Source of the DNA: Gammaproteobacteria bacterium
GTDB taxonomy: Bacteria > Pseudomonadota > Gammaproteobacteria > Pseudomonadales > Pseudohongiellaceae
Assembly (NCBI GenBank): GCA_030832825.1
Contig: JAURIJ010000003.1
Coordinates: 62,001-126,000, forward strand
Direction: 5' to 3'
Length of the DNA stretch: 64,000 nt
Below, in pieces: positions 4,677-12,137 of the stretch (position 1 is its first letter; every line of letters starts with the position of its first letter). A program made the translations under genes and the position numbers. The notes beneath the pieces were generated by a model, which saw nothing but the letters and a program-made list of their open reading frames with translations, ran no database searches and was not told the DNA's origin.

Positions 4677-5600
4677 CTACGAGGCGTCATCGGCGGCCTT
4701 GCCGGAGAGATAGTTCTGCTTGATGAATTCCCCCAGCAGCTCGAATTCCTGACCCCGCGTGCTGGCGCGGCGCCAGACCAGCCCGATTTCCCGAAAGCTG
4801 TCCTTGTCCAGTGCCGTGGTCTTGATGCGGGTGTTCTTCAGCAGGGCGGAGCCGATGGCCATTTCCGGAAGATAGGTCACCCCGAGATCGGCATCGACCA
4901 TCTGTACCAGGGTCAGCAGACTGGTGGCCGTGATGTCGCTCACCTTGTCGGCATTGGTGATGCTGCAGGCAGACAGGGCGTGATCGCGCAGACAGTGGCC
5001 GTCTTCCAGCAGCAGGATGCTGTCCTCGGGCAAGTCACTGACCTGACGCGCGTCCTTGGGCACCAGCGCGCTCTTGGCCTGATGGGCCAGATAGAAGCGA
5101 TCCTTGAACAGGGGCAGTTCGCTCACATTGCGCAGATCGTAGGGCAGAGCGATCAGGATGATGTCGAGTTCGCCATCCATCAAATGCGCGTAGACACGCT
5201 CGGTGAGGTCTTCCTTCAGGTAGAGCTTGAGATCGGGATAGGCCTTGCGCAGTGCCGGCAGCAGACGCGGCAGCAGGAACGGGGCAATCGTCGGGATCAC
5301 GCCAAGCTTGAGCTGCCCGGTCAAGGGTTGCTGATTGCCCTGCGCGATGTCGACCAGTTCCTCGAGATCGCGCAGCACCTGACGCGCCCGCACGGCGATC
5401 TGCCGCCCCAGATTCGTGACGGTGACATTCTTGTTGGTGCGATCCACGAGCTGGATGTTGAGCGTGCTCTCCAGCTCTCGAATGGCCACGCTGAAAGCTG
5501 GCTGGGAAACGAAGCAGGCCTCGGCCGCCTTGCCGAAGTGCCCGATCTGGTCCAGGGCAACGAAGTAACGCAGCTGCTTGGTGGTGGGCAGATGTTGCAT
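4677..5600 (-). CDS. oxyR: Hydrogen-peroxide-sensing LysR-type regulator OxyR
   Basis: This 307-residue protein is a full-length OxyR. It has an N-terminal winged helix-turn-helix (FGKAAEACFVSQPAFSVAIRE) and the sensor segment EDGHCLRDHALSAC. There C203 and C212 are spaced as are the peroxidatic C199 and resolving C208 of E. coli OxyR. Oxidation to the disulfide activates transcription of peroxide defence genes such as ahpCF, which also lies in this window (39.3-41.6 kb). The divergent 277 bp region upstream holds a strong candidate OxyR operator and an apparent small RNA unit. The gene is followed, in the same direction, by the redoxin-fusion gene. Confidence 0.95.
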   Translation of the reverse strand: MQHLPTTKQLRYFVALDQIGHFGKAAEACFVSQPAFSVAIRELESTLNIQLVDRTNKNVTVTNLGRQIAVRARQVLRDLEELVDIAQGNQQPLTGQLKLGVIPTIAPFLLPRLLPALRKAYPDLKLYLKEDLTERVYAHLMDGELDIILIALPYDLRNVSELPLFKDRFYLAHQAKSALVPKDARQVSDLPEDSILLLEDGHCLRDHALSACSITNADKVSDITATSLLTLVQMVDADLGVTYLPEMAIGSALLKNTRIKTTALDKDSFREIGLVWRRASTRGQEFELLGEFIKQNYLSGKAADDAS

Positions 5601-5635
5601 GACAGGCTCCTGTGCGATGGGTTTGCCGAAGGCTA

Positions 5636-5672
5636 ATCGACTTTCAATATCGTCGCAATAGCTTTAATCCAT
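5636..5672. promoter_or_regulatory. Candidate OxyR operator in the oxyR divergent region
   Basis: Four quarter-sites occur at the exact OxyR spacing of 4-7-4-7-4-7-4 bases: ATCG, ATAT, ATAG and CCAT, against the consensus ATAG, CTAT, ATAG, CTAT (13 of 16 positions). The inner T and A of the second half (ATAGCTTTAATCCAT) also match. The site ends two bases before the weak -35 region of the candidate small RNA promoter, the usual placement for OxyR activation, and lies 36 bases upstream of the oxyR start codon, which suits autoregulation. Confidence 0.6.
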
Positions 5673-5673
5673 T

Positions 5674-5702
5674 TCCTGTATGAATCCGGACGGGCCTATG
5701 AT
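5674..5702 (+). promoter_or_regulatory. Candidate sigma-70 promoter of the oxyR-divergent RNA
   Basis: A good -10 element TATGAT (5697-5702) is preceded, with 17-bp spacing, by a poor -35 (TCCTGT). A weak -35 next to the OxyR operator fits an activator-dependent promoter. Predicted start of transcription is near 5709. Confidence 0.45.
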
Positions 5703-5708
5703 CGCGCC

Positions 5709-5790
5709 ATGTGTTGAGGAACACCGCAAGCATACGAGTGACAGGCCCTTGCCGGAGCACGCTACCCCATGGAGTGCTCCGGTTTTTTTT
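5709..5790 (+). ncRNA. Candidate OxyR-dependent small RNA (about 82 nt), in the genomic position of OxyS
   Basis: The segment from the predicted start to the end of a strong intrinsic terminator looks like a complete bacterial small RNA. It has a 5' hairpin (GUGUU-GAGG-AACAC, 5711-5724), a roughly 27-nt unstructured linker, and a terminator stem with eight U residues. It is transcribed divergently from oxyR, as OxyS is in enterobacteria, and an OxyR-type operator sits directly upstream of its promoter. No sequence similarity to E. coli OxyS is claimed. The alternative is a 5' attenuator for the downstream NnrU-like gene; an ORF frame also runs through it, but high GC explains that. Confidence 0.5.
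5752..5790 (+). terminator. Strong Rho-independent terminator of the oxyR-divergent RNA
   Basis: CCGGAGCAC and GTGCTCCGG form a perfect 9-bp stem with a 13-base loop, followed at once by TTTTTTTT. It stands in front of, not behind, an annotated gene on the + strand. So it must end either an independent small RNA or a leader transcript. Confidence 0.85.
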
Positions 5791-5877
5791 GCCTGCGATA
5801 TACATCGATTCGGCGCCATAGTATCTTCGCCCGCCACACTCGGGAGCCGGTCACCCCGGCCGGATACGGACAAGACA

Positions 5878-6438
5878 GTGATCCTCTTGATACTCGGACT
5901 GGCACTGTGCTTCGGTGCACAGGCGGCCTGCACAGGCGAACGCGGCCGGACACTGGCACAGGCGCTGGGACGTCTTCGCCAGCTCGCCCTGGTCACTGCT
6001 GCAGCGATAGTCGGGAGCACCCTGGTGATTGCCGGCAAGAGCAGCGCCGCGTTCATCCAGATCTGGGTGCCCGCGTTCCCTCTGCGCGACAAGACCAATC
6101 TCGTGATGATTGCCGCGTGCATCGCGTTCGCTGCCGGCCTGCTGCCGGATTCACACACACGCGTACTCGTTCGTCACCCCTTGCTTGTCGGTCTGGCACT
6201 GGCGGGCATTGCCCATCTGCTCTCGAATGGGGATCTCGCTTCAATGGTGCTCTTCGGTTTGCCGACGTTGTGGGTGCTGCTGCAAGTGGTCGTGCGCGAG
6301 CGCAAGGGCCTGGCCACGCCAGGGGAGCCTGGACTGCAATGGGACGTCGCGGCAATCCTGCTGGGCATGATTGCCTACGGTGGACTTTTGGTGTTTCATG
6401 GGCCCCTGTTCGGGTTTGCGCTGACAGGTCCGTTATAG
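5878..6438 (+). CDS. NnrU-like integral membrane protein
   Basis: The ORF track begins at 5680, but residues before ILLILGLALCFGAQ have no family match and would run through the terminator. I therefore prefer the GTG at 5878 (186 residues), although its ribosome binding site is weak. The protein has about five membrane helices and NnrU-family signatures: an N-terminal ILGLALCFGAQ helix and the RHPLLVGLALAGIAHLLSNGDLASMVLFG block (quoted here in part: HLLSNGDLASMVLFG). NnrU proteins were named for association with nitrite/nitric oxide reduction in rhizobia, but the biochemical role is unknown. No denitrification genes are nearby. Confidence 0.75.
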   Translation: MILLILGLALCFGAQAACTGERGRTLAQALGRLRQLALVTAAAIVGSTLVIAGKSSAAFIQIWVPAFPLRDKTNLVMIAACIAFAAGLLPDSHTRVLVRHPLLVGLALAGIAHLLSNGDLASMVLFGLPTLWVLLQVVVRERKGLATPGEPGLQWDVAAILLGMIAYGGLLVFHGPLFGFALTGPL

Positions 6439-11122: not shown

Positions 11123-11893
11123 TCAATCGACGAAGGCGCGCTCGATCACGTACTCGGCCTTGATGCCCTGGCGGGATTCGCCGAAACCCCACTCATTGAG
11201 GATGCGGCTGATGTCCTTGAGCATGGCGGAACTGCCGCACAGCATGAAGCGATCGTCTTCCTTGCAGGCCTGTGGCAGGCCGATGTCGGAGAAAAGCTTG
11301 CCGCTGACCATCAGATCGGTGATGCGGCCGGTATAGACGAAGTCTTCGCGGGTGACGGTGGGGTAATAGATCAACTGCTCGCGCACCTGCTCGCCGAAGA
11401 ACTCGTTCTGCGGCAGCTCCTGGCTGATGTAGTCACGGTAAGCCAGGTCGATGATGCGGCGCACGCCGTGCACAAGGATCACCTTCTCGAAGCGCTCGTA
11501 GACTTCCGGGTCCCGGATGATGCTCATGAACGGCGCCAGCCCGGTGCCGGTGCCCAGCAGGTACAGATGACGCCCGGGCAGCAGGTGGTCGGCCACCAGG
11601 GTGCCGGTGGGCTTGCTGCTGATCAGCAGTTCGTCGCCGACGCGGATGTTCTGCAGGCGCGAGGTCAGCGGACCGTCGGGCACCTTGATGCTGAAGAACT
11701 CCAGCTCTTCCTCGTAATTGGCGCTGGCAATGCTGTAGGCACGCATCAGGGGCTTGCCCTCGACTTCCATGCCCACCATCACGAAATGCCCATTCTCGAA
11801 ACGCAGGGACTTGTCGCGCGTGGTGGTGAAGCTGAAGAGGGACTCATTCCAGTGGTGCACGCTGGTTACGCTTTGCTTGGAGACTGCCGCCAT
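11123..11893 (-). CDS. fpr: Ferredoxin-NADP(+) reductase
   Basis: The 256-residue protein is a bacterial-type Fpr. It has the FAD-binding RAYSIAS motif, the NADP-binding GTGTGLAPFMSIIR block and the short C-terminus (ending AFVD) of the subclass found in Pseudomonas and Azotobacter. It transfers electrons between NADPH and ferredoxin or flavodoxin, and in pseudomonads it supports the response to superoxide. The gene is divergent from a FinR-like LysR regulator, the same arrangement that controls fpr in Pseudomonas putida. A promoter candidate is listed separately. Confidence 0.93.
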   Translation of the reverse strand: MAAVSKQSVTSVHHWNESLFSFTTTRDKSLRFENGHFVMVGMEVEGKPLMRAYSIASANYEEELEFFSIKVPDGPLTSRLQNIRVGDELLISSKPTGTLVADHLLPGRHLYLLGTGTGLAPFMSIIRDPEVYERFEKVILVHGVRRIIDLAYRDYISQELPQNEFFGEQVREQLIYYPTVTREDFVYTGRITDLMVSGKLFSDIGLPQACKEDDRFMLCGSSAMLKDISRILNEWGFGESRQGIKAEYVIERAFVD

Positions 11894-11990: not shown

Positions 11991-12137
11991 ACAGATAATC
12001 CCCATATCCTTGATCGGTTTTGTTGATATATCCTGCGCTCGACGCGCCCCTTGCCCGGCGCCGTGAACGGAGCGGGACGATACAGGGGCAAGTCCGTGAA
12101 TTCAAGCCGCTGGCGCCCGCGCCGGCCGGGAGCCCCC

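Follow-up and report, generated by a model that had tools for sequence, protein, structure and literature searches.

A putative OxyR-controlled small RNA gene divergent from oxyR in Pseudohongiellaceae

Organization of the oxyR locus

The DNA analysed here, a stretch of 64 kb referred to as the window, is part of a 2.7 Mb draft genome of an uncultured bacterium. Its oxyR gene (4677..5600, minus strand) encodes a LysR-type peroxide sensor of 307 aa with the Pfam domains HTH_1 and LysR_substrate, and the redox cysteines lie within EDGHCLRDHALSAC, where both are conserved in relatives. The top NCBIfam family was OxyR PRK11151, at 231 bits against an equivalog cut-off of 329 and thus below it. Solved structures matched by the product were mostly OxyR proteins, with 7l4s at the top (E 6e-67), and the combination of LysR-type domains with two redox cysteines identifies it as an OxyR. 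Its nearest relatives are found in Gammaproteobacteria/Pseudomonadales metagenome assemblies and then in Pseudohongiella species, which points to Pseudohongiellaceae as the probable family of the host.

Divergently from oxyR, a small RNA of about 82 nt is predicted at 5709..5790 (plus strand). As an earlier sequence-only reading of this DNA had pointed out, its terminator comes before any plus-strand gene; the next one, at about 5878..6438 and outside the RNA, encodes an NnrU-family protein (PF07298, E 2.5e-26). Beyond it, the segment 6466-6930 encodes a small protein of secreted type that matches no Pfam or NCBIfam family and stays close to oxyR in each of the three genera considered below.

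Operator and promoter

A 37-bp OxyR-type operator is predicted at 5636..5672 (plus strand) from its consensus match. It consists of two 15-bp dyads separated by a 7-bp spacer, ATCGACTTTCAATAT-CGTCGCA-ATAGCTTTAATCCAT. Scoring was carried out with ATAGnTnnnAnCTAT-N7-ATAGnTnnnAnCTAT (20 specified positions), which we take to be the OxyR consensus. The site agrees at 15 of these positions and is the top site in the 64 kb on both strands, the next best reaching 13, while the oxyS operator of E. coli K-12, scored with the same consensus as a positive control, reaches 16/20. The operator proposed by the sequence-only reading was retained, together with the promoter that it had placed directly afterwards, with a good -10 and a weak -35. 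The -10 element TATGAT (5697..5702, plus strand) follows 24 nt past the operator; the distance is 23 nt in E. coli oxyS and in the majority of Pseudohongiella loci. The weak -35 lies at about 5674-5679. Overlapping the -35 region, a conserved extension of the operator (5673..5683, plus strand) reads TTCCTGTAT in the window and TTTTATCTAT in Pseudohongiella.

The region upstream of oxyR was aligned from 25 loci, in which a recurring order was found: operator, -10, GGAA(GG) box, CCCTT or CCCTCTT, and terminator. Conservation in this alignment tracks function. Mean column identity is 79% in the operator, 82% in its extension, 74% in the -10 box and 88% in CCCTT, against 48% in the promoter spacer.

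The joint second-best match to the consensus in the window (13/20) is at 11991-12027, upstream of the minus-strand gene 11123-11893, whose product resembles ferredoxin-NADP reductase by eye. Judged by its sequence, this match may bind OxyR or some other regulator of the LysR type.

Structure of the predicted RNA

The RNA would start near 5709, and its predicted Pseudohongiella homologues are roughly 77-125 nt long. Two conserved elements within it are functional candidates on the evidence of the alignments, namely the GGAA(GG) box and the C-rich stretch that precedes the terminator. The purine box (5716..5723, plus strand) reads TGAGGAAC in the window and GGAAGG in most relatives; GGAA occurs in almost every homologue, often within CAGGA. 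The C-rich stretch CCCTT (5746..5750, plus strand), which adjoins the terminator and takes the form CCCTCTT in Pseudohongiella, is the most conserved element besides the terminator, its CCCT columns being 92-100% identical over the 25 loci. It is unpaired in most predicted folds and is proposed as a target-pairing seed.

The intrinsic terminator (5752..5790, plus strand) has a C-rich loop and a perfect stem of 9 bp, CCGGAGCAC..GTGCTCCGG (5752-5782), followed by eight T residues (5783-5790). Its fold of -20.9 kcal/mol has a z of -5.35 and none of 200 shuffles was as good, in accordance with the terminator described by the sequence-only reading. A fixed-rule terminator scan missed 5752-5790, probably because the loop exceeds 8 nt. 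Seven of the nine modelled pairs are altered on both sides in a compensatory manner. Covariation in the helix amounts to 0.474 versus 0.195 in shuffles, a value reached by none of the 500 shuffles and none of the slid controls, and two-sided changes occupy 38 cells versus 11 expected from shuffles; the signal is destroyed when the partner strand is slid. The consensus structure contains the terminator only, as the one conserved helix.

The 5' hairpin GUGUU-GAGG-AACAC, also put forward in the sequence-only reading, fared less well. It is possible to draw it, but the fold of 5709-5750 does not surpass those of shuffles (z +0.55). In L042, the closest relative, the hairpin is disrupted (GTATTGAGAGACAC), and it is absent outside L043 and L044, so that no conserved fold was found in the 5' part. 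Pairing between the purine box and CCCTT was also considered and is unsupported, every shuffle doing equally well.

Conservation and distribution

A covariance search in related genomes, which the sequence-only reading had named as a check, did recover relatives with a covarying terminator. The model (R1) was built from 23 cores and searched in 137 genomes of the family and 295 of the order. Among the 137 Pseudohongiellaceae genomes, 25 had a match at E below 1e-8, and a further genome had one at 5e-4 beside oxyR. All 26 homologues are divergent from an OxyR orthologue (74-100% identical), and the genomes with the unit span three Pseudohongiellaceae genera, including cultured Pseudohongiella. 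The 295 order genomes yielded only weak extra matches, and those inspected resemble ordinary GC-rich terminators.

Losses also occur within the family. G011 and G013 have kept the operator and lack the RNA, L063 has lost the terminator, and L059 (P. nitratireducens) has lost the 5' half while keeping CCCTCTT and the terminator. The RNA therefore appears to be dispensable. Two of the loci surveyed come from metagenome bins whose record titles name Klebsiella pneumoniae (L044) and Rhodoferax (L063); these oxyR loci are of Pseudohongiellaceae type and the titles look misassigned.

A probable independent small RNA gene and competing readings

Taken from its sequence, the locus very probably holds a peroxide-switched small regulatory RNA gene adjoining oxyR. 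The best explanation, held with high confidence, is that of an independent OxyR-controlled sRNA gene, the Pseudohongiellaceae counterpart of OxyS, which would be activated by peroxide, bound by Hfq and repress mRNAs via its C-rich seed. This is also the reading at which the sequence-only account had arrived, and it is strengthened by the finding that the covariance model matches relatives always divergently from oxyR. The gene anatomy, its conservation, its divergence from oxyR, the terminator covariation and the independence from downstream genes are visible in the sequences themselves. Several observations speak against it nevertheless, including the partial fit of the operator to the consensus (15/20), the losses in G011, G013, L063 and L059, the 5' part without a conserved fold and the unconvincing target searches.

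A LysR-type regulator usually controls itself by binding in the divergent region, and the operator may accordingly serve oxyR autoregulation only, the divergent transcript being short, terminated and functionless. The two genomes with an operator and no RNA would fit such an arrangement. It is nonetheless unlikely, for the C-rich stretch and the compensatory changes in the terminator are retained across three genera in which the adjacent spacer has drifted.

The near-universal GGAA, with its frequent CAGGA context, raises the question whether the RNA acts mainly by binding a CsrA/RsmA-type protein via a GGA box. Such action is quite improbable, since the box is single and lies outside any conserved hairpin loop, and L042 and L059 have lost it while retaining the C-rich stretch.

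The transcript could also be the 5' leader of the NnrU-family gene with the hairpin as an attenuator, given that the two are on the same strand and that the terminator is about 90 bp from the gene in the window. Comparison of the genera makes this very improbable. In the genus of the window an NnrU-like gene comes next on this strand, whereas Pseudohongiella and L057 have a different small secreted-type protein there, and in L045 the remnant of an opposite-strand gene intervenes between the RNA and the downstream gene. Downstream genes have promoter-like stretches of their own, and that of the NnrU-family gene, read by eye, is common to relatives. Moreover, the terminator is the sole consensus structure, and an alternative antiterminator pairing is unsupported. 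That GGAAGG looks like a ribosome-binding site lends hardly any credence to a short encoded peptide, as no conserved start codon or frame follows the box and most frames remain open through the terminator. An independent sRNA gene rather than an mRNA leader is indicated, because the downstream genes vary by genus and no reading frame within the RNA is conserved across homologues.

Proposed mode of action and target searches

Transcription, activation by OxyR, use of Hfq, the seed and the targets are what we infer for this sRNA gene. Peroxide would oxidise OxyR bound at about 5636-5683, and the oxidised protein would bring in RNA polymerase at the -10 (5697) in spite of the weak -35. The RNA, beginning near 5709, would end in the U-tract at 5790, and its U-tail and terminator may load Hfq, which is encoded in the genome (E 8e-29). 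The exposed C-rich stretch (GGCCCUU in the window, UCCCUCUU in Pseudohongiella) could then pair with purine-rich ribosome-binding sites and repress the mRNAs. Its mostly unpaired state in the predicted folds would suit pairing with such sites. The GGAA(GG) box may provide a second point of contact, either with a different RNA or with a protein.

Searches for recurrent seed-complementary sites before ATG in two genera gave no convincing target. The complement of an 8-mer seed had 48 matches versus about 41 for a reversed-pattern control (own tally). Two or three genes with recurrent complements, named by eye as encoding an SDR protein, a small membrane protein and an RND-adaptor-like protein, were not convincing. 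A 7-nt segment of the RNA, GACAGGC, is complementary to the start region of oxyR in the window and L042; as this complementarity is absent from L043, L045 and L065, it was discounted.

Relation to OxyS and other known systems

OxyS is a textbook stress sRNA with three stem-loops. The sequence-only reading had likened the position of the RNA to that of enterobacterial OxyS, and the likeness is borne out by the location beside oxyR in all 26 homologues, with the E. coli locus as a control. Both RNAs (OxyS is RF00035) are divergent from oxyR and have an OxyR-type operator, a terminator with a U-tail and C-rich stretches; in the window, sequence match and spacing place the putative operator upstream of the promoter, and the distance from operator to -10 is 23-24 nt in the two systems. 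They differ in that the window RNA has about 82 nt and one conserved hairpin, whereas OxyS has about 110 nt and three. The RF00035 model matched nothing in 5580-5880 at E up to 5, nor in 18 relatives up to 2, while E. coli oxyS gave 139.5 bits as a positive control; R1 in turn does not match the E. coli oxyS locus. Neither model matching the other's RNA, the Pseudohongiellaceae RNA is not in the OxyS family. It is a counterpart of OxyS in position and probably also in function, and could still share an origin with it and have diverged past recognition.

In line with the earlier statement that OxyS is not known outside enterobacteria, a survey placed all 603 OxyS homologues within the enterobacterial clade (PMC5793797). 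Within the literature collection covered, phrase searches turned up no OxyR-dependent or OxyS-like sRNA outside enterobacteria, although this does not prove that there is none. Outgroups whose OxyR is roughly 58-66% identical carry at the divergent position dps and then a peroxiredoxin gene (L069) or a peroxiredoxin gene (L072), as named by eye from the translations. The oxyR-dps region of L069 has an operator-like stretch and a -10 in the same geometry as the window, which supports OxyR activation of the RNA. In these pairs the promoter drives an antioxidant protein gene, whereas in the window it is predicted to drive a small RNA, suggesting that the sRNA sits at a position held elsewhere by an antioxidant gene. 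It seems somewhat favoured that an OxyR-driven sRNA without sequence relationship to OxyS evolved separately in Pseudohongiellaceae, and that the combination of OxyR and a divergent sRNA has more than one origin, the sRNA here taking the place beside oxyR that dps or peroxiredoxin genes occupy in other gammaproteobacteria. A conserved, sequence-unrelated counterpart in another order would, if true, make this pairing a recurrent design, and the cultured Pseudohongiella strains would offer a second system in which to study the tasks of such an RNA during peroxide stress.

No Rfam family was matched at gathering or relaxed thresholds. ErsA/Pseudomon-1 of Pseudomonas (RF01719) is similar in having a C-rich loop in the terminator and a T-rich end with GCC after it, and differs in locus and regulator; it scored 14.7 bits in the window and at most 24.9 (L085) among the homologues scanned, against a cut-off of 50, the resemblance lying mainly in the terminator. 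Another RNA-like element, with GGAAGGTTTTGCAAGACGGTGCCTACCTTTGGCCGATCG and a terminator, is common to G009, G011 and G013; it lies away from oxyR (L186 at about 290-380, L185 on the minus strand, L106 and L107) and is weakly similar to R1.
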